DNA of 64,000 nt, from positions 62,001 to 126,000 of the forward strand of contig JAPJBO010000463.1 in assembly GCA_030068145.1 (NCBI GenBank), written 5' to 3'. Positions within the stretch are counted from its first letter, which is position 1; each line of letters opens with the position of its first letter. The DNA comes from Diplonema papillatum. Taxonomy: Eukaryota > Euglenozoa > Diplonemea > Diplonemida > Diplonemidae. Positions 1,581-49,819 of the stretch are shown here, piece by piece. The notes beneath the pieces were generated by a model. It had not been told where the DNA came from and did not search any database. It was given only the letters and a program-made list of their open reading frames with translations. The position numbers and the translations under genes are program-made.

Positions 1581-1685
1581 AATAGCCTCACTCCTGGACT
1601 TAGCGGCACTTGGCTCTGCGGCTAAGCGACTTGTGGGTCCCCCGCATGTGGACCAACCTGTGGCAAGCACTTGTGGAGGAAAAAA

Positions 1686-1912
1686 TAAATCAAAATCCAC
1701 ACTGTAGATCCACATGTGGAAGCACACGTGGGGGAAAAAAGTCCCAAAAATTAACGTGAGGAAATCCACACGTTCCACACGCGGAGCGTGGAGGAAAAAA
1801 TACATCAAAATCCACACTGTGGATCCACATGTGGAAGCACACGTGGGGGAAAAAAGTCCCAAAAAAAAAAGAACGTGTGTGGAAATCCACACGTTCCACA
1901 CGTGGAGCATAA
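1686..1912. repeat. Two-copy tandem repeat rich in CCACATGTGG palindromes
   Basis: Two copies of an about 118-bp unit contain CCACATGTGG and ATCCACACTGTGGATCC palindromes, GGAAATCCACACGTTCCACA and short A-runs. Open frames here (Trp, His, Thr and Cys rich) are by-products of the repeat. Confidence 0.7.
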
Positions 1913-1919
1913 GCCCTGC

Positions 1920-2803
1920 GCCACGTCCGCTTTTCGGGTGAGTCGGGAGCACCCTCTGCAGCTTCAGCTTTCGAGGCTGGGCTTCGCGGTGTATGTTTTT
2001 GTTGTGTTGCTACCCTTTTTCTTCTCTTTCTTTCAAAAGTAGTGCGGCTGTGCTGAAAGGAATATTTTTCCGGAACAAAAGCTGGGAAACACTGTTCGTC
2101 GGGTAGAAGGCGGAAGTCTCGGTTAAATGCGTAGACAGAAACACTGTCAAGCGTATGCATTCAGGGTCAAAACCTTGTGTCTTTTTGGAAATGGCAAAAA
2201 AAAAAATTCCAGAAAAAAATTGGGGTTTTTGAATTTTAAAATTTTGGAACAAACTCTGCAGTAATTTTTGATGAAGTTGAGCAAAAAAAAAAAATCTGAG
2301 TTAGGTGGTTTTAGTGGGTAAGTCCCGACGGAAAACCGGACAGTCCCACACTCACAAGTTTGGTCCGGCTTGTGGTCGTGCGTCATGCATTTCCCCCCTC
2401 AGTTACGAAAAAAAAATTCCAAAAAAAAATAGGGGGCCATCGGCCTGCGGCAGCGTTTTAAAAAGACACAAGGTTTTGACCCTGCATGATACATGGTTGA
2501 TGGTCAGAAGCTGGAGTTAAAGCTGCAGTTGAAAAAGCGGGTGCCACACCCCGCTTTTCGGGTGCGCATTGTGCAGGCGTTTTGGTTACGGCACGTCCGC
2601 TTTTCGGGTGAGTCGGGAGCACCCTCTGCAGCTCCAGCTTTCGAGGCTGGGCTTCGCGGTGTATGTTTTTGTTGTGTTGCTGTCCTTTTTCTTCTCTTTC
2701 TTTCAAAAGTAGTGCGGCTGTGCTGAAAGGAATATTTTTCCGGAACAAAAGCTGGGAAACACTGTTCGTCGGGTAGAAGGCGGAAGTCTCGGTTCAATGC
2801 GAA
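1920..2803. repeat. Direct duplication (1920-2134 and 2596-2803) around a MITE
   Basis: About 210 bp starting CACGTCCGCTTTTCGGGTGA is present twice in direct orientation with few differences. The copies share a CTTCTCTTTCTTTCAAAAGT segment and a GGAATATTTTTCCGG palindrome. The MITE at 2162-2484 lies between them. No coding function is assigned. Confidence 0.6.
2162..2484. mobile_element. MITE-like element with about 25-bp terminal inverted repeats
   Basis: The left end reads CAGGGTCAAAACCTTGTGTC and continues TTTTT. The right end is its reverse complement, from AAAAGACACAAGG to CCCTG. The interior is AT-rich with no coding sequence, so this looks like a nonautonomous DNA transposon. I could not define a clean target-site duplication. 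Confidence 0.55.
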
Positions 2804-3654
2804 GTTTGTGCGTATAAGTCGATCTTTGAGTGCGTGAGCCCCTCCGAAGAAAGGTCCATGACACTAGTTCCAGGCTACTTTAGCCCGGGTCTCTGGGTCA
2901 CGTCCCCCTCCTTCTCTTGGTCGCCTGGTCTTGCGTCTTGTTGGTCCGTCCGGGCTGGTCCCTTCGCGCTTCCCCTTCGTCTTGCATCACCCCGTCTCCA
3001 CTCCCTGCGTAGTTTGTGCGGTCGGCCTCACTCCTTCAATGCGGGAGTGGCACTCCCGCAATGCAGAGTGGCCACCCCCGCATTTCTTCACTCCCGCATT
3101 GACTTAGTATATGGCGAAGTCCGGGGTGTACAGAGGAGGTGTGGAAGTGCACGTACGAACAACACAGGTAGTGGGTTGTTCCTCCAAGTTAACCGTTAGA
3201 AAAGTGCCCACCAAAGTGACTTCATAGGGTTGTTTCTCCAAGCTTGGTGAGACTCTTTTCTTCCATCTCGCAAGCTACCATGTATTCGGTTGATTCCGGG
3301 GTGTATGTTCGGCTCTTCTCCCGACTCCCCAAATCGTGGTTAGTACAGACTCAGGAGGTCTAGTCAACGATTCCCTGCAGTAGTAGCATACTTACAAAAA
3401 CATGCCTTCGCTCTTTCGCTATCCTTTCAAAAACTGTTGCGTTGATGCATCCACACACTTCTTTTTTTTTTTTTTTTTGAGCAGGCCGAGTTTGGGCCCT
3501 CTCTTCAGGTAGTTCTTCTTTTTCACCTGGTATGTCTTGAGTTAGGGATCTCCGTGTGAAGCACGGACATGTAAACTGTGACAGTGACATGATCTTCAGT
3601 TTGGTGTTGGTTCGCTCGTTGCTCAGGCTTACATTTTTGGAACACATTGCAATG
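2804..3654. other. Intergenic stretch with short repeat fragments
   Basis: No gene is supported. At 3018-3095 there is a block built on GCGGGAGTGGCACTCCCGCA that recurs at about 23083-23150 and 23420 in the rDNA mosaic. A T-run occupies about 3460-3478. Confidence 0.45.
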
Positions 3655-3850
3655 TCTCGAAAAAGAAGAAGAAGGCCGACCGTCTCGACGACCTTGTGTT
3701 CAGCGCGAGCGCCAAGCCCCAAGGTACGCCAAGCCTTGATGCTTTAGTTTGGGAAATCGGTAGCCACTTGACCCGTAGGCCCGTGGCTCTGCAGTACCCG
3801 TGCAGCTTGGCTCCCGTGTTGGAACACATTGCAATGTCTCGAAAAAAGAA
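3655..3850 (-). repeat. Fragment of dispersed repeat A (reverse orientation)
   Basis: This segment contains GCGCGAGCGCCAAGCCCCAAGG and GTAGCCACTTGACCCGTAGG, the reverse complement of repeat A, whose fuller copies are at 12358-12640, 20148-20415 and 27798-28070. It is bracketed by a short duplication, GGAACACATTGCAATGTCTC, at about 3638 and 3820. Confidence 0.55.
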
Positions 3851-4435
3851 AAGCGAGGCCTGATTGGCGGTTATCCCGCAAAATGCAGGACTTCGGTAGG
3901 AGTCCCAAGTTTCGGGTTTCCAACGATGGACGTCAGTCCGTTGTCATCTTCCGTCGTGCCCTTGTGTTTTGCTTGTTTCGTTTTCTCCCTGACAGTTGCT
4001 TGGCCGTCCTTGTGGGGGGTTTCAGAGGAGGGGTTTTTAGAGACATAGTTGTTTTTAGTAAAATAACCTTTTTTCTTTTGAAGATTTTGAGGTTGCCCAC
4101 TCGGTAAGGGGTTAAGTTTCCTACTGTGGATCACACCATCTAACTTCACTTTCAAGAAGACCGCGGGTGGTCGGCTGAACCAGAGAGCCGCCGGAGAAGG
4201 TGTGTCCGTGTTTGGGTGGTGCTCCTGCTTTGTTAGCGGCATAGCAAACCCTCGGGAGGGGGACGGGTAAGAAATACTGCATGTTTCTTTCCGTTCAAGG
4301 AACACTTTCCGGAGTTGGGGCTTGCACCGATGAACGAAACGAACAATCAGCGCCGCCCTACCAAAGGTAGTGCAAAACGATGGGGCAGCAGTTCCTTGTT
4401 CTTCGCGTGTACAGGGTATAAACCTCTCTCGGAAA
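3851..4435. other. Unassigned stretch
   Basis: A minus-strand frame is open from about 4491 down to 3871 (206 codons). It has no recognisable domain and its 5' part overlaps repeat B, so I do not call it a gene. Confidence 0.35.
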
Positions 4436-4655
4436 TACTCGAGGGACTGCCTTGTGCTCATTTCGAAGGAGGCTAGAGGGGGAGAAAACAATACAACTAC
4501 AAAGTGGGTCTTTCTTGTTGAACGCTTACGCCCGCCACTAAACCCAGATTTACCTGTGTTTCGTGTGGGCTACAGCACATATACCTCCTTTGATCTATCG
4601 CAACTGGCAGTCTCCTCAAGCATTTCCTACAAAGCAGGTGCTTATACAAGAGAAA
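4436..4655 (+). repeat. Dispersed repeat B (about 215 bp)
   Basis: It begins CTCGAGGGACTGCCTTGTGC and ends near AAAGCAGGTGCTTATACAA. A near-identical copy lies at 21336-21555, a scrambled copy at about 9340-9535, a partial copy at about 12915-13075 and an inverted partial copy at about 29230-29420. It is noncoding and probably a SINE- or MITE-type unit. Confidence 0.65.
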
Positions 4656-5526
4656 AACTCAGTTTAAATGTTGCGACAGAACACTCCCTCTCATGGTAAT
4701 GCGTAGGCATGCTAGCATCAACCCTTCTTAGCTTTACGTAAAAAAACGATCAGGCACTGCGTTCAACGAAAACAACTCTCTCTTCCCATCATCATCATCA
4801 TCATTAGTTTTGTATCAGCCGCGGTTGTGCGAGTGACGAGCTCTTATTTCTCCCCCGCCATTGTGCTACCGTTGCTCCGGAAATGTTCCCTTCCGCGCAA
4901 ATGTAAATACTAAAAGAGAAAAAGTAAAAAGAAGAATGACATCGGTGCGCCCGGGAGCGGAAAGAAAAGCGAGGACGCGATGGAAACCGCATGAGCCTCG
5001 CTCAGCAGAGCGAAAAAAGATATTAGACAACCATGCCCCCCCACTCCCCTCCCAATCCACACAACCCATTTGTCCCGGAGGTTGTTGGAGCCGATCCACC
5101 CGCTGCTGATAGACTGTGATTAAGTACGCTAGTTGAGGTTTGAATGCAGAATACCTGTAGTGACTACCTCTTTCGATCGTACCGTGTCGTGCTTCTCGTT
5201 CCTGGGAGAGCGGCACGTGGCCAAGAGTATCCGGAGGGGCGCAGCCACGGCGCTGAGGCAGACGATGAGGGGACGCCGCGATGTCGTCACGAGCCACCGA
5301 AAGAAAGCTGTCTTTCGGTACTACGTCGAGGGCCCGGCGACGAACACGATGAAGACCCTCGAGAAGGCACAGCGGAGTGCTCCAAGGCATGGCGTTTGCA
5401 CTCATTTGAATCGCCGTCTTCGCGCGGCAGCTTTGCGCCCCTTCCCTTTCTCGCCGGTGTGCAGGCTTCTGCAGCAGGCAATTCGATGCAGCTCCAGGAA
5501 AATACAGGTGGACCGGCTCTCAGTTC
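4656..5526. other. Unassigned stretch with a possible coding fragment
   Basis: A (CAT)n run lies at about 4789-4803. Around 5195-5400 a plus-strand frame reads charged and Arg-rich, but it has no domain, start context or splice pair I can defend. The segment CAATTCGATGCAGCTC near 5480 recurs near 21664 and 21731, pointing to repeat origin. Confidence 0.35.
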
Positions 5527-6386
5527 TCATGCTACATGCCTAAACGTGTGCCACGACACGTGATTTGCGTGCTCATACGAAACCATGTAAAATCCGCAAG
5601 ATAATATTATACGCGTTTTCCGCAAAGTCGCTGACTCTGAATACCACGTACCCGCTTCTCGATTTGTGTGCAAGCGTGGCCTGGAGGTCCTTTCGTTGGC
5701 CAGACAGGCTCCGTCACGACTCAGTCGCCACCAGCGAGGAGGAATCCGGCGCCGACGCCAGCAAAACGAAGACGAGGGATGGTCCATGCCTAAACGTGTT
5801 GACACCAGACCATGTAAATCCGCAAGCTATGCCATGCAAAATAATTCGGTATTTCCGTGTCAAGTGGGTAGTGCAGCGTTGTTTTAGAGTGAAAACTTTT
5901 GGCGAAGCCGCTGACTCTGAATACCATGTACCCGCTCCTTCCTTGTGTGCGCAAGCGTGGCCTGGAGGTCCTTTCGTTGGCCAGACCGACTCTTCACGGT
6001 CAAACCCTCAGGCTGTCACGACTCAGTCGCCAGCGAGGAGGAATCCGGCGCCGACGCCAGCAAAACGAAGACGAGGGATGTTCCATGCCTAAACGTGTTG
6101 ACACCAAACCATGTAAAATCCGCAAACTATGCCATGCAAAATAATTCGGTATTTCCGTGTCAAGTGGGTAGTGCAGCGTTGTTTTAGAGTGAAAACTTTT
6201 GGCGAAGCCGCTGACTCTGAATACCACGTACCCGCTCCTTCCTTGTGTGCGCAAGCGTGGCCTGGAGGTCCTTTCGTTGGCCAGACCGATTCTTCGCTGT
6301 CAAACCCTCAGGCTGTCACGACTCAGTCGCCAGCGAGGAGGAAACCGGCGCCGACGCCGGCAAAACGAAGACGAGGGACGACAACC
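5527..6386. repeat. Three-copy tandem repeat, about 300-bp unit
   Basis: Three units begin near CCATGCCTAAACGTGT at about 5535, 5786 and 6085 and end in CGACGCCAGCAAAACGAAGA. The second and third copies are nearly identical while the first is shorter and diverged. No conserved protein is seen. Confidence 0.8.
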
Positions 6387-6390
6387 CCCC

Positions 6391-7650
6391 CCCTAGGGCT
6401 ATGTAGGATGGAAACGTTGGAAACGTTGGAAACGTTTCCGTTTCCGTTTCCGTTTCCTTCTTTTTGGCGGTGGATGGAAACGCCGTTTCTTTTCAAAAGA
6501 AACGGCTGGTATGCCACTAGTATACTGGCTGAAGGTCCGACCGGAAATGTGTTCCGAACGGCGGACCCCGCAATCCAGTGGGAAACCATGGACAAGGAGG
6601 CTCCGAAAAGAGGGAGGAAAGAAGCATAAGAGTTGCGACCACGTGGAGCAGACGCAACCACACGCATCCGGTTGTGAGGACTTTGAGGTCTGCAGCTCTT
6701 TACACCAATGGCTGTTGTGGCGACGATGCTCTGTTATGCGAGGCCGTTGGCCAACGCGCTGAAGACGATCGGGAAAGCACATCCGCTTCCAATAATAGAC
6801 TCTACAGATACGATCGTTCAGCGCCACAGGCTACAAGACCGGGATTCTTCGGCGGTGTAAGACAAAGAGGGAGTGCAATCAGCATCAGGAGGTGACCGTA
6901 TGCCGGGGCAATGTTGAACCCGCCAGAAAAGCGACGGCCACGCAGTAATGTGTCCGTTAAACATCGCTTGCCACTGTGCACTTTGCATACGACGACGGGT
7001 GGCAACCGTCACCGGAAGGGGCGCCATCGGGCGGTGTTGTCGGAGCATAGACAACGACGGCAGGAAGAACCACCAACAATGCAGAAGAGGACGGCAGATT
7101 CAAAAAGCCCCACTCACATGAGAACGTGGGTTGGAAGCAGCAGAAGACGAAGTGGTAGGCACAGAAGAGTGGAATCTGGTGTCAGAAAACATCCACATGT
7201 GACGACATTCTGCATCATTAGCTTGTGGTTACCTATTTGCTCGTGCCAGATCGCCGACGAAAGAAAGCGGTGAGCACCGGCGACTGCTCTGCACAAACGA
7301 GACACACACACAAGAAGGGGCCGAGCCAAGTCGAAGAACAGCCCAGGAAGGGCCCTGAAGAGTCAGAGAGCCCGCCAGAAGACGGAGGAAGAGAAGTGCC
7401 CGCTGGTAGATCAAAAGAAGAAGGTGATCCCGCCCTCTGAAAGGAAAGCCAAAAATTGGCTGGAAACGGACACCCGACAGGACACACCGAAGGACCGGCG
7501 AAGTGGTATCCTATAGGACCCCTCAGCATGGGAGCCTTCCGGCGTTTCTTTTAAAAGAAACGGAAACGTTTCCGTTTCCGTTTCCGTTTCCGTTTCCTTA
7601 TTTCGAAAAAACTAAAAGAAACGGCGTTTCCATCCAACTTATCCCTAGGG
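6391..7650. mobile_element. TIR element with GGAAACG subterminal repeats (about 1.26 kb)
   Basis: Both ends start CCCTAGGG and continue to GGATGGAAACG in inverted orientation, with 23 of 26 terminal bases matching. Inside each end are clustered GGAAACG/CGTTTCC units (6408-6465 and 7556-7600) and an AAAAGAAACGGCGTTTC inverted segment. The interior has open frames but no recognisable transposase, so it is probably nonautonomous. It abuts a second, different TIR element on its right. Confidence 0.65.
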
Positions 7651-8086
7651 CAGTGATCATGGCAAACGTTGAACGTTTGAACGTTTGACAAACGTTTGCG
7701 TTTGCAAAACTCATGTCAAACGTGTATCAAACGTGAGTGAGGCGCTGGCTGCGCCTGCAGTGGGGATCCGAGTGTGAGGTCGGCTTGTGAACACTCGAGC
7801 CACAAGGGCAAGATTCCCGGGCCCCAGAAAGTGGGAGGGAACACTTGCTGAAGGCTAGTATCTCCCTGTATCTGCTGCACGCCCAAGGAGAACCAGAAGG
7901 ATGTCTTGTTCCCTTATTTTCGTCGTGTCCGCCTGCATCCACGTGGACAAGGGCTATCAAGGGTCGTGTACTGTGTACAGACCCGGTCCATCGATTGGTA
8001 AACGTCACGTTTGCACGTTTGTCAAACGTTTGCGTTTGATAAATCTTGTCAAACGTACGTTTGCAAACGTTTGATAACATCACTGC
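7650..8086. mobile_element. MITE-like element with AAACGTTTG subterminal repeats (about 435 bp)
   Basis: It starts GCAGTGAT and ends ATCACTGC, with imperfect inverted continuation. Each end has a cluster of AAACGTTTG-type motifs (7665-7735 and 7995-8075). It is too short to code for a transposase. No target-site duplication is obvious because it joins the preceding element directly. Confidence 0.6.
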
Positions 8087-16920: not shown

Positions 16921-19361
16921 CAGCTCGGCATGTGCCTCACGTGCGAGTACGCTCCGCAGTCCCAGAATACGTGTTTCTCGTCCTCGGTGTCGCCGCTTCC
17001 ACAGTGCTTGCAGCTGGGCGCCTGCGGCTCAGCTCCGGCCTGCCTCATCCGCGACGTGTACTCAGCCGTGTTCACCCCCCCCGCCAACGCTACACGTATA
17101 AGCCTCGCGGTGTGCGCGGGACATTCACGCATCCTCCAGAAGGAGTTCGTCCGCTCCAGGTCGGCTCTCTGTATGCCCTCGAATCCCGGCCGCCTCGCCA
17201 CCAGTCGGGACCACGTCTTCGCCCTCAAGTCCGCCCTAACTTCATGTCCCCTCTTCGAAGGTGCCGAGGTTAACGGGTCATACGTTGCTCCATTCCTCAG
17301 CGTGCGAGACAGGGGCCCGGGTCCCCATACGTGTCCACACTCCTCCATGCTCCTCATCGCCAGTCCAACTGGCCCCAGGGGTAGGTCCCCCTCGGCGTAT
17401 CTTCCCCGGATGCTCTCCATCAGAGGCAGCAGTCGTGGCAACCTCTCGCACGCCGCGAAAAACGCTGTCGTCACCCTATATGCTAGGCATGTACCGGGAT
17501 CCGTCAGGTGGCCCTTCTCCTGAAAGTTTAGGACCATCTCCCTCGCGCGCTTCGGGTTGGATCCACCCCAGATCAGTCCCATCACCGACGTCGTCAGCCG
17601 TTTCATCGCCACCTTCGATACCGGCGCGAAAGAGCAGCCTGACAGCGCCGCCGGTAGCACATTCGACTGCACAATCCGGACCCGCTTTTCGTACCGGAAC
17701 GGCGCATGGCGGAGGCCTTCCGCCAGGGCAGCCGCCTTCTCCACCCTCTCCGAGTCGGACCTTTCCGTCCTATTCTTCGCCGTCGAGACTAGGACCCCGA
17801 GGCACTTGACGGATTTGCTAAACCGCAGCAGCGCATCCACGCTGCGGAGTTTGAGAGTCGACTGATGCCTACGTCTCGTCGAGAACGCGACCGTCTTCTG
17901 GAGGTTTAGCTCCATCCCGGTGAGTGTGCAGAACTCGTCTACTACGTCCACTCCCTTTTGCAGGGCGGCCTCCGACAGCCTGGACAGCAGTGTGGCGTCG
18001 TCCGCGTATGACTTTGGACTCACACCCTCCGCTTCTTTCTTGACCGCTTTCATCACTACCGACAGCAGGGCATTGATGAGTATGACGGATACAGGGCACC
18101 CTTGAAGGATACCGTTGGTCACACTGAACTCCCTGCCCACCCCTAATGGTAGCTTGAAGCGTCTCGCGAGCAGTCTGTAGATAGCCCTCAGCGGCTTGAG
18201 AACCCGATTGTGCAATCCTAAGTCCTCGGCTAAGCGCAGTACTATCTCTCGCGGGACCATGTCGAAGCATTTCCGGAAGTCCAGCGCCACACCGTAGAGC
18301 GGCTCCCCGTCTAACAAGGCGTCCTCCATCTCGAGCCCAATTTCCATCAAGACGTCCTCGATCCGGTGACCCGGTCGAAAGCCTTTCTGTCCTTCTTCGA
18401 TCCATTCCTCTTGCCACAGAACTATGTCCGCCAGCCTGCGGCAGGCCCATAAGCGGTACACGGCGGATGTGACGGTTATCGGTCTTGTGTGCAGCGGGTC
18501 TTGACTCTCATCCTTCGGCACCATCGACACCAGCGCAGTTGTCATGCTTGCCGGCCAGTCTCCAGTTGTTTCGACCAGGTTCATGACGTCTGCAAGTGCA
18601 TTCAGCAGGGGGAGCGGCAACTCCCGCAGTTCAGCCATACGCCAGCCATCCACCCCTGACGCGCTTTTCTTCGGCTTCTTCCTCAGCAGAATTCGCAGCT
18701 CCTCCCCCGTGATTGTTCCGGCTTCCATCATATGTGGGCCGATGTGATCCCGGAACCGATCCCGAAACGGCTCGTACTCCGGCTCTGGCCCGTCCTTGTA
18801 CTTACGCAGGATAGGGTCCCACGCAGTGTTCAGCACCTCGTCCATCTCGTCAATATTTGCAGTCACTCCCGCCCCCTTTCGCAACACCCCCGACGGCTCA
18901 GCGCGTCCGGCGCAGATGGTTGTCAGACATCGTCTGCTCGCATCGGCCCTCTCGTTCAGCTTGTCTCGGTATTTCGTAAACCTGGCCGCCGATCCTTCCT
19001 TTCCGAGCCTGCTCGTCTCTTCCCGCAATGCCGTGAGAAGCTGCTTCGCCTCCTCATGATCCGGGAATCCTTCTGTCCTTTGGCCATCTTTCATGCACGC
19101 CTGTGCCAGCCGCCTGCTGTTCTGCCAGCAACGGGATACCTCATGCGGAACTGCCTCCGGCCCGCGCCGTTGCGCAAGGTAGCTGCAGATGCATTCCATC
19201 CTGTGGATGGCCTTCCGGAGCCGTAGCTGTCTGCTGTTCGCCGCCCCCGACCCGTCGCTCGCAGTGCTTGCCGTGATGCAGACTCTTTTAGGTGACGTCT
19301 TTATCCCCCGTCCTGTACTTCTTCCCCTTTCTTCCGCAGGGATTCCGAAGGCATCCTGCAA
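16920..19361 (-). CDS. LINE reverse transcriptase (5'-truncated)
   Basis: The frame covers 813 codons. Residues about 1-170 are a linker and 225-480 carry reverse transcriptase motifs: RPITVTSAVYRLWACRRLAD, GFRPGHRIEDVL, the catalytic VALDFRKCFD (Asp near 361), NGILQGCPVSVILINALLS and YADD (452-455). A thumb region follows. Similarity to 42900-45400 is extensive. A CxxC-x-H-type motif (CKHCGSGDTEDEKHVFWDC) near the end is typical of LINE C-termini. The N-terminal APE domain is absent. The first Met is simply the first available and is unlikely to be an authentic start. Confidence 0.85.
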   Translation of the reverse strand: MQDAFGIPAEERGRSTGRGIKTSPKRVCITASTASDGSGAANSRQLRLRKAIHRMECICSYLAQRRGPEAVPHEVSRCWQNSRRLAQACMKDGQRTEGFPDHEEAKQLLTALREETSRLGKEGSAARFTKYRDKLNERADASRRCLTTICAGRAEPSGVLRKGAGVTANIDEMDEVLNTAWDPILRKYKDGPEPEYEPFRDRFRDHIGPHMMEAGTITGEELRILLRKKPKKSASGVDGWRMAELRELPLPLLNALADVMNLVETTGDWPASMTTALVSMVPKDESQDPLHTRPITVTSAVYRLWACRRLADIVLWQEEWIEEGQKGFRPGHRIEDVLMEIGLEMEDALLDGEPLYGVALDFRKCFDMVPREIVLRLAEDLGLHNRVLKPLRAIYRLLARRFKLPLGVGREFSVTNGILQGCPVSVILINALLSVVMKAVKKEAEGVSPKSYADDATLLSRLSEAALQKGVDVVDEFCTLTGMELNLQKTVAFSTRRRHQSTLKLRSVDALLRFSKSVKCLGVLVSTAKNRTERSDSERVEKAAALAEGLRHAPFRYEKRVRIVQSNVLPAALSGCSFAPVSKVAMKRLTTSVMGLIWGGSNPKRAREMVLNFQEKGHLTDPGTCLAYRVTTAFFAACERLPRLLPLMESIRGRYAEGDLPLGPVGLAMRSMEECGHVWGPGPLSRTLRNGATYDPLTSAPSKRGHEVRADLRAKTWSRLVARRPGFEGIQRADLERTNSFWRMRECPAHTARLIRVALAGGVNTAEYTSRMRQAGAEPQAPSCKHCGSGDTEDEKHVFWDCGAYSHVRHMPS

Positions 19362-40701: not shown

Positions 40702-40740
40702 CTGTGCAATTGGTGTTGCTGGTTGGGTTGGGGGAAGCTT

Positions 40741-40938
40741 GTTGAATGTTTAAGCAGAACCTGACCTCTCATGCAATGCAGTGTTGAGTGAATGTTTGGG
40801 CAGAACCTGACCTCTCATGCAATGCAGTGTTGAATGTTTGGGCAGAACCTGACCTCTCATGCAATGCAGTGTTGAATGTTTGGGCAGAACCTGACCACTC
40901 ATGCAATGCAGTGTTGAATGCTTGGGCAGAACCTGACC
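40741..40938. repeat. 40-bp tandem repeat derived from the C-rich-ended family; insertion target
   Basis: About four units of GAATGTTTGGGCAGAACCTG and ACCTCTCATGCAATGCAGTG occur. They resemble GTTTAGGCAGGACACTGCCT-CTCATGCATG of the family copies at 13661 and 32283, here amplified. The array is interrupted at TGACC by the element at 40939-47297 and resumes at 47298. Confidence 0.8.
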
Positions 40939-40976
40939 TGGGGCAATCCACCTATTTTCTAGCAGAAAAAATCACA
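40939..40976. repeat. Left terminal inverted repeat (38 bp)
   Basis: It reads TGGGGCAATCCACC...AATCACA. It pairs with 47260-47297 with four mismatches. A further short match, CACAACTTTTC, lies about 16 bp further inside. Confidence 0.85.
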
Positions 40977-41144
40977 GAATTCCAAATCAATTCACAACTT
41001 TTCCGGGCTGCGACGGTCACGACATCCTTCGTGAGAAGCGGATCGCGGACGTGCGTGGTGACGGGGGATGGCGGCCCGCCGTTCCGCGTCATCGAAAGGG
41101 AAGGGTCGCCCTTCATTGTCGTCAACGACTACGACAAGGGCGAG

Positions 41145-41546
41145 ATGCCGCGGCCGCGTTCTAAGCGCCTCGCCTCCTCCCTCCCGACGACGCCCGGCCA
41201 GAGGCGGCGCATGAAGCTGCCCGCCGCCGAAGTTCATACGGATCCGGAGCCGGCTCCGTCCAACAAGCGGAAGCGCGAGGAGGTGACACAGCCGGCGGAA
41301 GCGGGACAGTCGCTAATCCAGCGAGCTGTGGCCGGTGTGGTCGAGATGCTGTCCCCCCCGCGCCAGCGTCTGAAGGAGCCGGTCGAGGGTGAGAAGGCCG
41401 GTCACCGGCACGAGCTGTCCGATGGGGTGCGGGCTCCAGCGGAGTTTAAATGCGGCGATTGTCAGAAGACGATCCAGAAGGGCCGCATGCAGAGGAGGTG
41501 CGAAGAGTGCGGCGCCAGCGTGTGTGTCACGTGCTCGCGCGCCTGA
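41145..41546 (+). CDS. ORF1 of the TIR-bounded retroelement, with a RING/PHD-like zinc motif
   Basis: From the first internal ATG (MPRPRSKRLASSLPTTPGQR) this frame gives 133 residues; the frame is open further upstream to the TIR (TVTTSFVRSGSRTCVVTGDG...), so the true start is uncertain. A basic segment (PSNKRKREE) is followed by a C-terminal cross-brace-like cluster FKCGDC-(13)-CEEC-(4)-CVTC, suggesting nucleic-acid or protein binding. It ends in TGA at 41544, after which the same frame continues without another stop into the 2A and APE-RT region. Confidence 0.65.
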   Translation: MPRPRSKRLASSLPTTPGQRRRMKLPAAEVHTDPEPAPSNKRKREEVTQPAEAGQSLIQRAVAGVVEMLSPPRQRLKEPVEGEKAGHRHELSDGVRAPAEFKCGDCQKTIQKGRMQRRCEECGASVCVTCSRA

Positions 41547-41890
41547 CTGCCGTCAAGCCACGACGCCCGCGCGGACGGCGATGCTGCGGGAGCCCGCTTG
41601 ATGCGATGTGGGGATGTGCATCCCAACCCTGGCCCCGGGCGCCGAGCGCTCGCCTCGACCGCCGCGGCGGCTTTCCGCCGCGGACGTCGCCGTCGACCGG
41701 CCGGCGCAGCCCGGTACGTTACCGCGCGTATGCAGCACCGCGCGCGGGGCGTGGGTTCCCGGGTTGCCTTGCGGCGTGAGCGTGTTGAATGTGCGTGGCT
41801 ACCGTCGAAGCACGACGCCCGTGAGTATGCGTACGCCGCGGGGGAACGGCTCTTGAGGTGCGGGGACGTCCACCCGAACCCTGGTCCCCC
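41544..41890 (+). promoter_or_regulatory. In-frame UGA followed by two 2A-like ribosome-skipping modules
   Basis: After TGA-CTG the frame reads LPSSHDARADGDAAGARLMR followed by CGDVHPNPGP (ends 41636). A duplicate, LPSKHDAREYAYAAGERLLR plus CGDVHPNPGP, ends near 41889. D-V-x-x-N-P-G-P is the 2A core, in which translation skips between G and P; variants with H in place of E are known in non-LTR elements. UGA followed by C is a leaky stop context. The roughly 30-residue module is therefore present twice. Confidence 0.7.
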
Positions 41891-44800
41891 GCGCGATCTC
41901 ACTCTTGCTGCAGTCAATGTTGGCTCGCTGGCCCTGCACATTGACGAGGTGCGGGCGATGGCGCCCGCAGACGCGATTGCGGTGCTGGAGACGTCGATGG
42001 GCGAGTTGCAGCAGGCGCAGGCGACGGACTATCTCGCGAGACCGTGCGCCGTCGACGGGTCGAGGTGGAAGACGCTGTGGGGGCCGCCGCAACCGCCGAA
42101 GCGCAGCAAGCACTGTCCGCACGGAAACCCGCATTCCGGGCAGAAGGGGGGAGGAGTCGTTGTGCTTGCCAGGCAGCCGGGGGTGGCCCACCTGCTGCCC
42201 AACGAATCGCTGCAGGAAGTGCGCAACCGGGTCATCCACACGATGATCGCGACGGGGGTCGGACGGATGTTCGTACACTTCTTTGCCGTCTACGCCCCAT
42301 CGGGGAACACGGCAGCGGCGTCCCGGGAGCGGCTCCTGCAGACGGTCCTCTTCGAGGCGCAGGCCATGGTGGGGCAGGCCCCGGCGGTCGTGATGGGCGA
42401 CTTCAACACGGACGTTGAGCGGTCGCCGGCGCTTCGGCATGCCCTCAGCAACGGGTGGACGGACGCAGCGCAGCTGCAGGCGGCGTGCGAGGGAGGACGA
42501 CCGCCCAACACCTACACGGGCACGAACACGTCCGGCACGCGCATCGACTACGCCCTGATGAACCGCGCGGCCGCGTCCGCCTTTGTTGCATGCGAGACGA
42601 TCGGGGTAGGGAGCGTGAGGGGCCACCGCTGCGTCCGGATTCGACTCGCGGTGCAGGCGTTCGAACAGCAGACATGGAGGTTCAACGTGCCGCGAGCGAT
42701 ACCCGTGAAGCCGGCAGGTAGGGTCGTCGAGGTCCCGAGGCTGGATGCCGTGTGCGCCGCCGCCCGCGAGGGGGACGTCGAAGGGGCGTGGATGGCGCTC
42801 TCCGCTCTGTGCGAGCAGTACCTGCTAGACCGCAGCGGGATGCCTGCCTGTGAGAGACGTGCGCACACCGGCCGCGGTAACTCGGAGCTGAAGATGACTC
42901 GCGTTGCGGCGAGGAGTACGCCGGACCGGGGCGTGGCGTGCGAGACGGAGCTGAGGCACGGGAATGCGATCCGGCGTCTGGAGCACTACGTCTACCAGCG
43001 AGCTCGCCTAGAAGCGTCCGGACCATTCCAGGTGCCCCAAGAACTCCGCTTGTGCTGGCTGCGCTGTCTCGCCGTGATCCGTGGCGGCGGGGTCGGCGAG
43101 CCGCCCCCCTCCGACCCGCCGAGCGCAGAGGTCGCTCGCGTTTACTTGCACGACGTACGACTGCGCAGTGCGAGATTCAACGCGGCTGCGGCGAGGGTAC
43201 GGAAGAGGCAGCAACAGGAGAGGCAGCTGACGATGTTTGGGACGGATCGCCGGGCTCTTGTGTCGATGCTGCGGGGGGGTCCGGGGCAGGCGGCCGATGC
43301 GGTGCGGACAGCGGACGGGAGACTCACCGCCAACGTCGAGGAGATGGACGAGGTGCTGCAGGAGGCGTGGGACCCGATCCTGCGCATGTACGGGGAAGGA
43401 CGCCCAGAGCCCGAGTACGAGGCGTTCCGCAGGGCCTTCGAGGGTTTTATTCCCCGCCGCCAGATGGACCTGCGGGATGTGACCGGGAGGGAGCTACGGG
43501 ATGTTCTCAACAAGCGGAAGAAGAAGACTACGGCGTGTGGGGTGGACGGCTGGCGTTTGGACGAACTGAAGGCCCTGCCCGACGAGCTGCTGGACGGGTT
43601 CGCGACGCTTTTCAATCTGGTGGAGGAGCGAGGGGAGTGGCCGAAGGGTATGCTGACGTCGTTGGTGTCGCTCATACCAAAGACCGACGACACCTCGCCG
43701 ACCAACTTGCGGCCAATCACCGTGACGAGCTGCGTCTATCGGTTATGGGCCTGCAGGCGTTTGCAAGACGTCATGGAGTGGCAGGACGGCTGGATTCTTC
43801 CGTCGCAGCACGGCTTCCGCAGAGGGCATCGGACGGACGACGTCCTCATGGAGCTGACGACGCTGATCGAGGAGACGCTGCTCGACGAGTCGAAGTCGCT
43901 GTACATGGTCGCACTCGATTTCGCGAAGTGCTTCGACCGGGTACCGCAGGGGATCGTTCTCCGGCTTGCCGAAGGGATGGGCCTCGACGCGCGCATCCTG
44001 CGCCCCCTGCGCGCCATGTACCGTGGGATGAAGCGCCGGTTTAAGCTGCCGCTGGGCGTGGGTTCCGAGTTTGAGGTCACCAACGGTATCTTGCAGGGGT
44101 GCCCACTTTCGGTGATCCTCATCAACGCCTTGCTGTCGATAGTGCTCCGAGCGGTGTCGGCGCGCGTACCGGAGGTTTCGTCGGAGTCGCTGGCGGATGA
44201 TGCCACGCTCTTCGCGTCCGTGGAGTCCGAGCTGCAGCAGGCGGTCGACGTCATCGCACAGTTCTGCGCCCTGACAGGGATGCGGCTGAACATGACGAAG
44301 ACACTGGCGATGGGGATCCCCGCGGGCACGGTGCGGCAGCGTCGGCGGCGGCCCTATACGAGCGTGCTGGCAGTCGGCGACGAGACGATACCGACAGCGA
44401 CGGCGGCGAAGATCCTCGGTGTGCGTACGAGTGTCGCGAGCGTTCAGGCGGAACGTACCAACGACGCGCGTCTGAAGGCCCATAACGCATTGCTGGACAG
44501 GCTGAGCACCTCGCGCCTTCCATTCGATGTCCGCTGCGAGGTGGCGAGCTCCAATGTCCTCGGAAGCGTGCTGGCGGGGTGCTCGTACGAGGGGTACACG
44601 CAGACGTGCCTCAGGGGGCTGCGGTCGCGGGTAGTGAAGGGAGCTTTCGGGACGAAGCATCCGTCGAGGAATGTGACGGCGGTGCTGGCCATCCTGGCGA
44701 AAGCCCACCGAATGGACCCACTGTTGGCTCGGCCGTACAGGATCCTGTGCTCGCTTTTCGACACGTGCGAGAGGCTCCCCCGCGTACACGCCCGCATGCT

Positions 44801-46295
44801 GAACATCGCCCGGCTTTACAGCCGGCACGGTGTGTTGTTGCCGAAGGCGCGCCTGGGACCTGTCGGGATCGCCATCTCTGACGGTTTCACGGTCGCGGGC
44901 ATCGATTTCGAAGGCCACGACTTTGCGACCGCGGCGCTCGAGGGCCGCCGGCTTCTCGACATGGAGAGGGGCGAGAGGCACCACGCCATCCGGGCACGGC
45001 TACGGCAGACGACCTGGACGCAGCTTGCGAGGCAACGGCCGTCTTACGACGGCGTGCAGGCAGGGGTGGACTGCAGGCGTACGAACGAGCTGCGCCTAGC
45101 GACGGCTGACGCTGGCGAGAAACGTGCGCTGGCGGTGATTCTGTCCGGGGGTGTGTTCCTCGCTGCGCGGTGGGGACGGAATGCGCGTGCGAACGGAGGG
45201 GCGGCCGGGACAGACGGGTCGCCGAGCTCCTCGGCGTCCGTGTCGTCGACCGCCTCTGATACGACCGGCAGCTTTGACGAGCACGTCTCCGAATCCTCCT
45301 CTTCGGAACCTCAGCGTCCGCCGCTGGACCGCGGCTGCAGGGACTGCGACCTGGGCGTCCAGGACACAGCGGATCACCTGTGGTGGGAGTGCCCCGCCTA
45401 CGACGAGATTCGCGGCCGTCCTTGCTTCGCCGAACTCCTGCGGGCGGACCGGGCGAGGTGGCCGTCTTGCACGCGTGTGCATGGGGTTATTGTCGAAGGA
45501 ATGCGGGTGGAGGTCGCGGCCCTTCACCGCCTCATGGCGGCGGTGTACACTGCACGCGTGGAGGCGGAGCGACGCCGCCTCTCCGCAGTGCAACCGATGC
45601 ACCCCTGGCACGCAGCTGCGCCGCTGCCGGCGGTGCAACACCTGTTCGACTTCGACCGCCTTCCGGATGAGCCGCCGAGATGGCCGTACGGCGGCCGTGC
45701 GATGCGGGCGCTCAAGGGCTGGCTGTCGGCACTGAGGTGGACCAACGCAGGCGAGGTGTCGTGCGTTGAGCTGGCAGTGGACTTCGAGGTCCACACCGGG
45801 GTCGACGTCCCTGCCCCCCCGGGAATACGAAGGCTCGCCGCCAACCAGAGGGGGAAGACCCTCTGGACGATGCTGTCGACATTGTGCCGCCTGTGCCGAG
45901 AGCTGCCGTCGCCGTTGCCTGCCGAGCGGAAGGTCCGGGTGGGCTCGATGAGGACCCTGGGGGCGCCGATGCTGTGGGGGGGATTGACACCTCGCCCACG
46001 CTTCGCCGGGGGCGAGGAGACGCACGGGGTGCTGGGACGAGCTTTCCGCGGGCAGCTGCCGGGGACGGGAAGAACTGGGGCGGGGACGTGTTCCCGCAGT
46101 ACGACGCGGCGCGGCGGGCACAGCGTTCGCTGCGCTGGGACGTGCCCACCCCTCTGCCGCAACGCCCGCGCCTTCCCGTGCTTGTACCGGCTGCGCAGGC
46201 GGACCCTCTGCTCCGCACGCAGTCGGTCTGCGATGCCTGCGCGAAGCAGAAGTGCGCGGTGTGCACTGGCATGCGAAGAAACTACAGCCTTGTAG
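41601..46295 (+). CDS. APE endonuclease-reverse transcriptase polyprotein (LINE ORF2)
   Basis: Numbering from 41598, the second 2A motif ends at about residue 97. An APE-type endonuclease follows (about 102-350): VNVGSLALHIDE, the catalytic Glu in AVLETSM, VYAPSG, VMGDFNTD, GTRIDYALMN and RGHRCVRIRL. A linker leads to the reverse transcriptase (about 615-900): RPITVTSCVYRLWACRR, HGFRRGHRTDDVL, VALDFAKCFD (Asp774), GILQGCPLSVILINALLS and LADD (865-868, in place of YADD). A CRDCDLGVQDTADHLWWECP motif follows near residue 1250. The frame ends in noise after about 46070, where the neighbouring frame takes over. It resembles 16920-19361 closely. Catalytic residues look intact. Confidence 0.9.
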   Translation: MRCGDVHPNPGPGRRALASTAAAAFRRGRRRRPAGAARYVTARMQHRARGVGSRVALRRERVECAWLPSKHDAREYAYAAGERLLRCGDVHPNPGPPRDLTLAAVNVGSLALHIDEVRAMAPADAIAVLETSMGELQQAQATDYLARPCAVDGSRWKTLWGPPQPPKRSKHCPHGNPHSGQKGGGVVVLARQPGVAHLLPNESLQEVRNRVIHTMIATGVGRMFVHFFAVYAPSGNTAAASRERLLQTVLFEAQAMVGQAPAVVMGDFNTDVERSPALRHALSNGWTDAAQLQAACEGGRPPNTYTGTNTSGTRIDYALMNRAAASAFVACETIGVGSVRGHRCVRIRLAVQAFEQQTWRFNVPRAIPVKPAGRVVEVPRLDAVCAAAREGDVEGAWMALSALCEQYLLDRSGMPACERRAHTGRGNSELKMTRVAARSTPDRGVACETELRHGNAIRRLEHYVYQRARLEASGPFQVPQELRLCWLRCLAVIRGGGVGEPPPSDPPSAEVARVYLHDVRLRSARFNAAAARVRKRQQQERQLTMFGTDRRALVSMLRGGPGQAADAVRTADGRLTANVEEMDEVLQEAWDPILRMYGEGRPEPEYEAFRRAFEGFIPRRQMDLRDVTGRELRDVLNKRKKKTTACGVDGWRLDELKALPDELLDGFATLFNLVEERGEWPKGMLTSLVSLIPKTDDTSPTNLRPITVTSCVYRLWACRRLQDVMEWQDGWILPSQHGFRRGHRTDDVLMELTTLIEETLLDESKSLYMVALDFAKCFDRVPQGIVLRLAEGMGLDARILRPLRAMYRGMKRRFKLPLGVGSEFEVTNGILQGCPLSVILINALLSIVLRAVSARVPEVSSESLADDATLFASVESELQQAVDVIAQFCALTGMRLNMTKTLAMGIPAGTVRQRRRRPYTSVLAVGDETIPTATAAKILGVRTSVASVQAERTNDARLKAHNALLDRLSTSRLPFDVRCEVASSNVLGSVLAGCSYEGYTQTCLRGLRSRVVKGAFGTKHPSRNVTAVLAILAKAHRMDPLLARPYRILCSLFDTCERLPRVHARMLNIARLYSRHGVLLPKARLGPVGIAISDGFTVAGIDFEGHDFATAALEGRRLLDMERGERHHAIRARLRQTTWTQLARQRPSYDGVQAGVDCRRTNELRLATADAGEKRALAVILSGGVFLAARWGRNARANGGAAGTDGSPSSSASVSSTASDTTGSFDEHVSESSSSEPQRPPLDRGCRDCDLGVQDTADHLWWECPAYDEIRGRPCFAELLRADRARWPSCTRVHGVIVEGMRVEVAALHRLMAAVYTARVEAERRRLSAVQPMHPWHAAAPLPAVQHLFDFDRLPDEPPRWPYGGRAMRALKGWLSALRWTNAGEVSCVELAVDFEVHTGVDVPAPPGIRRLAANQRGKTLWTMLSTLCRLCRELPSPLPAERKVRVGSMRTLGAPMLWGGLTPRPRFAGGEETHGVLGRAFRGQLPGTGRTGAGTCSRSTTRRGGHSVRCAGTCPPLCRNARAFPCLYRLRRRTLCSARSRSAMPARSRSARCALACEETTAL

Positions 46296-47185
46296 TTGAC
46301 CAGTGCTGCCAGGTGCACCACCGCCCTGACGACGGCCTGCGCATTCAGTGCTGCCGGGCGCATCGGCTGACGCGATGTGGGACCTGCCCGAACGCCGACG
46401 CGTGCTGCGGACGGGGGCATCACAGGGGTGGTGCTGGCCGCGACGGCAGCAGTGGCGACGGGGGTGGCGGTGGTCATGGCGGCCGCGGCCGTGGCCGCGG
46501 CCGCGGCGGCCGAGGCGGCGGAGACGACAGTGACGGAGACGGTGGCGGCGGCCGCGGCACTGGTCGCGGCCGCGCACGCGGCGGCGGTCGCGGCAGCGGT
46601 CGCGGCGGGGATCGCGGCGGCGGCGGCGGTGGCGGTCGCAGCCTAGGCGAGAGCGACGGCCTCACAGGCCGGAAGCGGCGCGCGCCGTCCCCACCTGGAA
46701 CACCTACCAGCCGTGGCCGGAGGAGGCGGACGACGAAGTCGCCCCCGAAGCGCGCCCCCCCGCCAGCAGGCAGGAAGCGACCCGCGCCATGCACCCCCAC
46801 GGCCTCTCCCGCAGCCGCGCTGCGCGCACGACGACGACGACGCGCCGATCTCGGCGACGACGGCACTGGCCTCGCCGGCCCGAACACACCGCGCCCACCC
46901 GGCCCCGCCCGGCCCTCTTCGATGGCAGGCCCTGACTCGGGCCCTTTTACTGATTCTGGTTCCGACCCTCCACGGGTCACACAACGATCGCGCCCTCCCG
47001 CCGGCTCTTCCCGGCTACTCGCGTCCTCCGCATCGCGGCGTGCCTATCGGCGCAAGCGAGAAAGCGAAGACTCCGATTCCTTTTCGGATTATGAGATCGT
47101 GAGCAACTGCCAACAACAGTTGCAGCCGACTAGAGTTGCGCCGCGCCGAAAGCGCGGAAAAAGTGACCCTTCTGGAGTCACGTAG
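46070..47185 (+). CDS. C-terminal Cys/His and RGG tail of the retroelement, other frame
   Basis: This frame (-1 relative to the APE-RT frame) continues the homology to 15337-16920. It carries NWGGDVFPQYDAARRAQRSL, then CDACAKQKCAVC, CCQVHHR, CCRAHRLTRCGTC and CCGRGHHRGG zinc-type clusters. A long GRGRGRGG/GGDRGGGG RNA-binding-type tract (about 46430-46660) and a basic Ser/Pro tail ending GKSDPSGVT follow. The switch point lies at about 46055-46085. It is either one mutation or a programmed -1 shift; the equivalent region of the copy at 15-19 kb is in frame at this point. Confidence 0.65.
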   Translation, partial: KNWGGDVFPQYDAARRAQRSLRWDVPTPLPQRPRLPVLVPAAQADPLLRTQSVCDACAKQKCAVCTGMRRNYSLVVDQCCQVHHRPDDGLRIQCCRAHRLTRCGTCPNADACCGRGHHRGGAGRDGSSGDGGGGGHGGRGRGRGRGGRGGGDDSDGDGGGGRGTGRGRARGGGRGSGRGGDRGGGGGGGRSLGESDGLTGRKRRAPSPPGTPTSRGRRRRTTKSPPKRAPPPAGRKRPAPCTPTASPAAALRARRRRRADLGDDGTGLAGPNTPRPPGPARPSSMAGPDSGPFTDSGSDPPRVTQRSRPPAGSSRLLASSASRRAYRRKRESEDSDSFSDYEIVSNCQQQLQPTRVAPRRKRGKSDPSGVT

Positions 47186-47259
47186 CGAAAAGCTGGCATA
47201 GTGTGGTACTCATTTGCTTGCAAATGACTCCCCACTAACGCAACAAGACGACGAAAAGT

Positions 47260-47297
47260 TGTGATTTTTTGTGCTAAAAAATAGGTGGATCACCCCA
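47260..47297. repeat. Right terminal inverted repeat (38 bp)
   Basis: It reads TGTGATTTTTTGTGCTAAAA...CACCCCA, the inverted partner of 40939-40976, followed directly by the duplicated TGACC. Confidence 0.85.
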
Positions 47298-48169
47298 TGA
47301 CCTCTCATATGCGATGCAGTGTTGAATGTTTAGGCAGAACCTGACCTCTCATGCAATGCAGTGTTGCTCGCTGGATGGGGGGAAGTCTTACTTACTACAA
47401 GTTGAAGCTCGTCAGTGGGTCCTCTGAAGGATGGGGGGGTTTAGGTCCGTTTCCATGATTCCCATCGTGGTCGGTCATCAAAAGGGGGGGGTGTCCAGCG
47501 TTAAGGATCAGCCACTTTGGCCGGATGGCGTGTCAAATTCTCTAAGGTGAAATGGTCAAAATTCCCTGCCAAAAGTGGGCCCACAATATCTTTCCAAAGT
47601 GTGGTATTTGGGGTATTTGGGGCAAAAATACTCGACGTAGCTGCTTCGACTCCGAATGGAAGGGGGGAAATATAGAGGTAAGGGGCAATTACAATACAAA
47701 CTCAATCTGTTTTGTTCTTCGCTTACACCACCGTGTGTTGTTTTCTCACTCAGGACTTTTGACCTGTTGTGTTTGTGTGATTTGTCGTGTAGGGGTAGAC
47801 CCGCATGACCTCACGTCCGTTCAACACGTGGTTCGGTAGTTACAGCACTTGGGATCCCTTCTGTTCTTTGTCGGGCAGCATCGTCGAGCATTTCCTTTCA
47901 AGCTGGCGCTTATGCAGAAAAAAAAAAATCTCTTTTTCTGACTGCCGGCTGATGGATGGTTGGATGGTTCTTAACAAGATGCCTGGGGTGTCAGGAGGCA
48001 CCGCGGTTGAACGACAAAGAGATACAGTACAGTAGCCCAGAATAGTTGCTGGTCTGAAAAGTTGTTGCTTGTCTTGGCGAGCAACAACTTCCCGTGGCAA
48101 CATCGCACACCCTCCTCACTACGACCACTATCTGTCATCATAAGAAGTGTGGCAGCCCACTTTCTAGAG
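47298..48169. repeat. Remainder of the C-rich-ended family copy, and repeat C
   Basis: The interrupted 40-bp repeat resumes (to about 47370). Then TTACTTACTACAAG, TCAGTGGGTCCTCTGAAGGA and GTTTAGGTCCGTTTCC show that the 13661-type family extended here before the insertion. Repeat C lies at 47715-47900. No exon of host gene 3 is needed between 48614 and 40701. Confidence 0.6.
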
Positions 48170-49228: not shown

Positions 49229-49819
49229 CTGTGAGAGTTGGTTCCGTGTTTTCATCAGTCAATCCGATGGTTTCGGCATCAAAACAACAAAACGACAAAG
49301 ATAGTACGGTATCTCGACGTATTTGTTTGTTTTCTTGATTTCGTTGTTCAGATCTTCAGATCTTCCAGAACCCAGATGGGGGCAAAAAAGATTTCTTCTC
49401 ACTCATTCATTCGATCTCGGTCACAGTAAATACGGGCACGAAGTGCCACAGAGTTGAGATTTGGCGAGGAGAGGGTTTCGAACACCAGGAGAAAGTACGT
49501 GCGCTCGGCTAAAGGCCGGCGCGGGGCGAGACTGGAGGCGGCAGTTAAAGTTCGGGAAACAGTAAAGTTCGGGCGAAGCTAAGTTCGGGCGATGCTAAGT
49601 TTGGTGATGCAAATTTCTGGTGAACCAAAGTTCGGGCGAAGCTAAGTTCGGGCGATGCTAAGTTTGGGTGATGCAAATTGCTGGTGAACCAAAGTTCGGG
49701 CGAAGCAAAGTTCGGGAGGGGAGGGTCTCGAACACCAGGAGAAAAGACATGCATGCTGATGCAGCCAGAACTGAATGGGCAAAGGAGGGAGCCATAGGCA
49801 CCAGAGACAGCACACACAC
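49229..49819. repeat. Host gene 3 intron 3, containing an inverted minisatellite
   Basis: At 49500-49735 CGAAGCTAAGTTCGGGCGAT and GGTGATGCAAATT-CTGGTGAACC units form an inverted relative of 33590-34245, sharing its end sequence. Reading through this intron yields a repetitive FASPELSFART-type peptide, which is not part of the protein. Confidence 0.75.

Follow-up and report, generated by a model that had tools for sequence, protein, structure and literature searches.

A 5'-truncated APE-type non-LTR retrotransposon within one member of a TIR family that it has very probably entered repeatedly

In Xenopus laevis, the APE-type non-LTR retrotransposon Tx1L reportedly occurs again and again at a fixed place in the TIR-bounded DNA element Tx1D, an arrangement that is said to have been worked out by Garrett and Carroll in 1986, by Garrett, Knutzon and Carroll in 1989 and by Christensen et al. 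in 2000. Tx1 in Xenopus was reportedly interpreted at first as one composite element of two classes. Target-specific APE non-LTR elements belong to the Tx1 and R1 clades, as one passage of a published account puts it (PMC4640811), and a passage of another places Tx1 in the L1 group (PMC3747384). The window analyzed here is a 64-kb stretch that forms part of contig C463 in a 271-Mb assembly of 2910 contigs, whose size and mobile elements point to a eukaryote. Its central feature is very probably a 5'-truncated copy of a non-LTR retrotransposon, labeled R1 in this text only and unrelated to the insect R1 clade, inside a TIR element that duplicates 5 bp of its target; R1 prefers the motif GAAAAGTTGTG and would have entered such elements by repeated targeted insertion.

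The two inverted arms of the window feature are identical at 34 of 38 positions, and the next best 38-mer to the left arm in a scan of the 64-kb window reaches 23 of 38. Both copies of the 5-bp duplication are exact (Table 1), and fusing the flanks with one TGACC dropped makes the host tandem repeat whole again. The original prediction had named the TIR match, the duplication and the restored repeat, all of which are borne out by the sequence; its unit length of 40 bp for the host repeat has to be corrected, since the period is 42 bp according to Tandem Repeats Finder. End A in the window terminates in CACAACTTTTC, which is an R1 target motif on the opposite strand. Elsewhere in the window, positions 18043-18161 and 18763-18880 match R1 ORF2 on the opposite strand at 73-77% identity and are perhaps remnants of an older R1 relative. 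Short stretches resembling the interior of the TIR element are also found outside the element, at 47536-47628, 49572-49601 and 49635-49664.

Table 1. Features of the element and its surroundings (positions in the window)
Feature	Position	Strand
Host 42-bp tandem repeat, left part of the array (insertion target of the TIR element)	40740..40938	
Left 5-bp target-site duplication of the TIR element, TGACC	40934..40938	
End A of the TIR element, 65 bp (TIR 40939-40976)	40939..41003	+
Single additional C at the junction of end A and R1	41004..41004	
R1, APE/RT non-LTR retrotransposon, nt 1591 to 3' end, 5'-truncated	41005..47252	+
Main R1 ORF2 frame of the window copy, 1565 aa	41598..46295	+
First 2A-like motif, DVHPNPGP	41613..41636	+
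Second 2A-like motif, DVHPNPGP	41865..41888	+
APE-type endonuclease domain (PF03372)	41916..42590	+
Reverse transcriptase domain (PF00078)	43674..44351	+
Predicted hairpin in the R1 3' UTR	47199..47237	+
R1 target motif GAAAAGTTGTG, within end B, directly 3' of R1	47253..47263	+
End B of the TIR element, 45 bp (TIR 47260-47297)	47253..47297	-
Right 5-bp target-site duplication, TGACC	47298..47302	
Host 42-bp repeat, right part of the array	47303..47366	

The TIRs are not due to chance, because a TIR pattern of 34 places, allowed as many as 2 mismatches, matched 170 sites in the 271-Mb assembly, whereas its reversed control matched 0. The ends fall into two types, A (65 bp) and B (45 bp). Among 100 listed TIR places, all 18 inverted pairs within 16 kb join an A with a B, and the same is true of a second, partly different set of 18 pairs for which the flanks were read. 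An exact 5-bp duplication is present at 13 of the latter 18 pairs and absent from the other five (C36, C195, C567, C201 and C1653). TIRs accompanied by a target duplication of fixed length at many loci mark the family as TIR DNA transposons. The standard element is ~2.35 kb long as read in C1653, a reference copy that bears no duplication and contains short R1 pieces; it consists of end B, a 65-bp stretch, a part of ~600-700 bp without long frames, a segment here called R2 (1.47 kb) and end A, the interior measuring ~2.2 kb. No transposase was recognized among the frames of the 2.35-kb element, one of which was put to Pfam, and the 5-bp duplications and TGGGGYGATCCACC ends are matched to no superfamily. 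The C78 copy, which is flanked by the duplication AAGGA, is internally deleted and has no R1 3' end, and an end A without adjoining R1 is also found at C15, C1028 and C525:45337. Identical flanks were seen in different contigs or places (L112 in C652 and L113 in C2326; L036 and L037; L038, L041, L042 and L050). Copy counts are somewhat inflated because the assembly contains duplicated regions or unmerged haplotypes.

R2 (L060:965-2443; also L086) is a constant part of the TIR element in its standard 2.35-kb form. From 40 scored loci, 26 R2 rows were examined, and in 25 of these 26 the interior stretch and R2 are spaced by 169-184 bp, the exception being C78, in which the interior stretch has no match. 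The coordinates of the interior and of R2, together with the C1653 sequence, rule out R2 as a second independent insertion at each locus. In blastp comparisons one R2 piece matches the C-terminal part of R1 ORF2 (28% identity, 3e-9), and on this homology R2 looks like an old LINE fragment; the other three pieces gave values of 0.09 or worse and no convincing match with R1, and Pfam returned nothing for the one R2 frame that was searched. Four of 25 R2 loci (C49, C298, C420 and C1464) have their own, differing 5-bp duplications, which argues that R2 has travelled within elements of this TIR family as they moved.

Probing with 1 kb of the R1 APE region gave 166 candidates; 40 of these, all at 99-100%, were scored, and 20 of the 40 copies were fetched. 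Many of the fetched copies extend upstream beyond the start of the window copy. The full-length R1 is 7846 nt (~7.8 kb) in the C1191 copy (L065 from 2285, L014), and a common 5' start, TGTGGGGGAGACTGG, was found in three loci with differing flanks. The window copy corresponds to nt 1591-7846 of the full-length copy, with 99.6% identity to that in C1191, and is thus 5'-truncated. About 19 nt just upstream of nt 1, GTTTCTGTACTTTATTG, are common to two loci, C1191 (L065 5' flank) and C161 (L100); the 5' end of R1 may vary or extend slightly. The 3' end is fixed and reads GACGAC, and there are 1109 R1 3' ends in the 271-Mb assembly. In the three copies with a mapped 5' end, no TIR was found in ~2.2 kb of 5' flank or in 0.4 kb of 3' flank. 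The 3' flanks were readable in 15 of the 20 fetched copies, three having run off the contig and two having lost homology inside. Three of the 15 continue directly into TIR-element sequence (L010, L015 and L019), four into another R1 copy (L009, L013, L016 and L021, the L021 cluster terminating at an end A) and eight into other sequences, which resemble the target motif at best. These 3' flanks, together with the TIR-free full-length copies, rule out the TIRs as parts of R1.

Searches with the ORF2 frame of the window copy identified the APE domain (PF03372, 1.2e-13) and the RT domain (PF00078, 1.7e-23), the latter with human LINE-1 ORF2p as its best sequence match in the PDB (3.9e-17). Self-comparison of the C1191 copy revealed no long terminal direct repeats, and no poly(A) was found at the R1 3' junctions read. 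R1 is an APE-type non-LTR retrotransposon in that it combines APE and RT in one frame, lacks LTRs, and has copies that share a fixed 3' end and vary in their 5' truncation and in the length of their target duplications. In the C1191 copy, frames of 709 and 1881 codons lie in the same phase with one stop codon between them, and the 1881-codon frame opens with two DVHPNPGP motifs ahead of the APE domain (window 41547-41888), which we take to be 2A-like motifs. A layout with a single stop and 2A-like motifs might reflect readthrough or reinitiation with release of a peptide. The start of the first frame is lost from the window copy. Its ORF2 is also frame-broken near the C-terminal part, because the same frame stays open to nt 7775 in the C1191 copy.

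The TIR element bears one copy of GAAAAGTTGTG in end B, two in the stretch after end B and two beside end A. Genome-wide, the R1 3' end is joined to the inner part of end B at 44 places and to the doubled motif (as found beside end A or in the B-side stretch) at 98 places, some of which continue otherwise. Measured against the 100 listed arms, 65 of these 142 junction places are no more than 200 bp from an arm and 106 are no more than 16 kb from one. Viewed from the arms, at least 62 of the 100 listed (30 of 47 A and 32 of 53 B) have a junction of the GACGAC/GAAAAGTTGTG type within 160 bp of the end, against a chance expectation of ~0.07 for 1109 R1 ends in 271 Mb; the figure of 62 is a lower bound for R1 because single-motif junctions, such as that on the A side of C567, fall outside the pattern. 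The R1 3' end, read as reverse complement, is located no more than ~10 nt past end A in 24 of 30 end-A loci (duplicated loci included), a share that is biased because the loci were found with a probe ending in CAACTTTTCC; the remaining six comprise the window, C525:45337 and a duplicated region with four loci. R1 is thus target-specific in that it inserts again and again at a single nucleotide position in a defined target. The preference is partial and relaxed, however, because the two counted junction types account for no more than 142 of the 1109 R1 3' ends, which leaves at least 967 elsewhere.

A variant of the motif, GAATAGTTGTG, is present at the B-end junctions of C16, C1127 (twice) and C1464, and it is also present in B ends without directly adjoining R1 (C121 and C486), which argues that the motif belongs to the target. 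That GAAAAGTTGTG is the tail of R1 is ruled out by the appearance of the target's variant motifs at the junction. In C1464 an R1 fragment is situated between 9-bp duplications, CAACTATTC, with the GAATAGTTGTG variant on both sides, and the successive R1 insertions in C1537 have their own duplications, GCAAAGTTGTG and GAAAAGTTG. When 13 loci were followed outward from the R2 tail, 10 led to R1, one of them (C610) with only a short R1-like hairpin piece, and three led to a diverged relative (74-83%). The truncation points of R1 at these 13 loci range from nt 1 to nt 7794 and two of them coincide (7780); this scatter indicates a pattern of repeated insertion rather than one composite that was copied around. 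Both families, with their ends, junctions and duplications and the enrichment at the target, are direct observations, and from these the most likely way for R1 to insert is target-primed reverse transcription at sites that it prefers within the transposon.

Short R1 copies make up 23 of 65 distinct 3' ends in a sample of loci that is enriched for TIR elements, which biases the base frequencies derived from it. A perfect target duplication of 7-11 bp was found in eight of the 23 and one of 4 bp in another; the other 14 have no perfect duplication of at least 4 bp. Nine of the 23 start at nt 7780-7794, near the base of the predicted hairpin in the 3' UTR (-13.1 kcal/mol, z -2.1; an equally or more stable fold arose in 6 of 200 shuffles). 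Perhaps the reverse transcriptase often halts at the hairpin, or the hairpin is the minimum that is recognized. Very short R1 copies of ~50-70 nt that start near the hairpin base were seen in L002, L019, L030, L053, L092, L093, L096 and L104, and mini copies of this kind may account for many of the 1109 R1 3' ends.

In the window, the joint between R1 and end B is of the standard type. The 5' end of R1 meets end A, plus one C, at the site to which the R1 3' end is joined in C567, C201, C321 and C449, and this A-R1 junction has a single match in the assembly. The window R1 has no target duplication of its own on the 5' side and is therefore not a textbook insertion. The interior of the TIR element is missing from the window copy, and it is lost in C567 too, which reads B, ~960 bp of R1, 57 bp of R1 in the opposite direction, and A. 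A mechanism can be proposed. The R1 endonuclease would nick in front of GAAAAGTTGTG, and reverse transcription of R1 RNA would begin at the nick, leaving 3' ends of the form GACGAC/GAAAAGTTGTG and duplicating a short piece of the target, 7-11 bp in length. Because the motif stands beside both ends of the TIR element, the element would be struck repeatedly, and since every R1 insertion would regenerate the motif, head-to-tail and tail-out clusters would result. The window R1 would then be anchored at the motif of end B, with its truncated 5' end fused to end A at the cut site, and the interior would have gone either during that insertion, with both cut sites opened, or afterwards, through a deletion that ended at the cut site.

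Other explanations of the window feature account for parts of the same evidence. The original prediction had left a choice between a new class of retroelement with TIR ends and a transposon that carries a retroelement. Junctions between R1 and the TIRs do recur in tens of loci, as would be seen if the TIRs were the retroelement's own ends, but full-length R1 copies share one 5' start amid differing flanks and have no TIRs in the flanks read, R1 3' ends are also found in other flanks, and where they adjoin the TIR element they point to either end A or end B. The TIR element also occurs without R1 (C78), and C567 has two outward-facing R1 pieces in one element. Since intact R1 copies do not bear the TIRs by which a new class would be recognized, that possibility is extremely unlikely. 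The same prediction had taken copies of the retroelement lacking TIRs, together with TIR elements lacking the retroelement, as a sign of chance nested insertion. Both were found, each family existing independently of the other (full-length R1 without a TIR in the flanks read; the C78 element with its AAGGA duplication), but chance nesting does not follow, because the nesting of R1 is targeted. That an untargeted LINE simply landed in a TIR transposon would agree with the large majority of R1 3' ends lying off the two counted junction types; it is very hard to reconcile with R1 3' junctions at the same few nucleotides in most of the listed arms, and we consider it very improbable.

The idea of a transposon carrying a retroelement holds as a description of the structure, since a retroelement does lie inside a TIR transposon, but not as an account of how R1 came there, because the same 3' junction, the varied 5' truncations and the 7-11-bp duplications indicate that R1 arrived repeatedly by its own site-preferring insertion. 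A narrower form of it concerns the window copy only: R1 insertion and interior loss could have taken place in a donor elsewhere, and the composite, R1 included, could then have jumped into the 42-bp repeat as cargo of the TIR element. In its favor, the window copy keeps its outer 5-bp duplication intact, TIR pairs flanked by exact duplications can be as long as 13 kb and hold several R1 copies (C1464), and the TIR family already carries the LINE-derived R2 at four loci with different 5-bp duplications. Moreover, C49:102500, C163 and C173 have differing flanks and share an R1 variant and an end-B variant. However, the single match of the window A-R1 junction means that no donor is seen, and the end-A R1 copies of C441 and C486 are identical over 1400 bp, one being truncated and the other not. 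The association of variants in C49, C163 and C173 is not exclusive either, as C172, C296 and C303 mix them, and it is only suggestive of a composite that moved as a unit. Further candidates for such movement were rejected: C652 and C2326 share the flank that was read and look like one duplicated locus, and flanks are likewise shared between L036 and L037 and among L038, L041, L042 and L050. Taken together, arrival of the window composite as cargo is doubtful, though it deserves some weight beside repeated targeted insertion.

A bolder possibility, which we regard as quite unlikely, is that the R1 endonuclease cuts both sub-terminal motifs at once, so that insertion swaps the whole interior for R1 and gives an A-R1-B composite, which is then moved by a transposase in trans. 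If so, A-R1-B composites would be a new TIR transposon with APE/RT cargo, and the LINE would gain a second way to spread, through DNA; the window copy, whose 5' junction lies where end A is cut, would be such a product. Under repeated targeted insertion, the question once raised for Tx1 in Xenopus, composite or site-specific guest, would be answered by R1 and its TIR element for their own case. The dozens of junctions offer a system for studying how an APE endonuclease chooses a short motif, and the pair offers one for the use of one mobile element by another as a renewable landing site. TIRs and a target duplication around a reverse transcriptase gene are by themselves insufficient to define a new class.

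Several described systems share features with this locus. Human LINE-1 ORF2p (PDB 8sxt and others) gives the best RT match and has the same order of APE and then RT, whereas R1 has no poly(A) at the junctions read, has a fixed 3' end, prefers GAAAAGTTGTG-like sites and bears 2A-like motifs ahead of its APE domain. The outer element resembles non-autonomous TIR DNA transposons in having TIRs and a short fixed duplication, and no transposase was recognized among the frames of its 2.35-kb form. With the target-specific elements of the Tx1 and R1 clades, the R1 described here shares the APE domain and site-preferring insertion into a multicopy sequence; unlike them, it targets a transposon and its preference is relaxed. 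Judged by arrangement, in which an APE-type non-LTR retrotransposon recurs within a TIR-bounded DNA element, Tx1L in Tx1D appears to be the closest precedent for R1 in its TIR element. R1 differs from that precedent in having several target sites per transposon, near both ends, and many copies elsewhere, and the TIR element here differs in its 5-bp duplication and in the fossil LINE relative that it contains.
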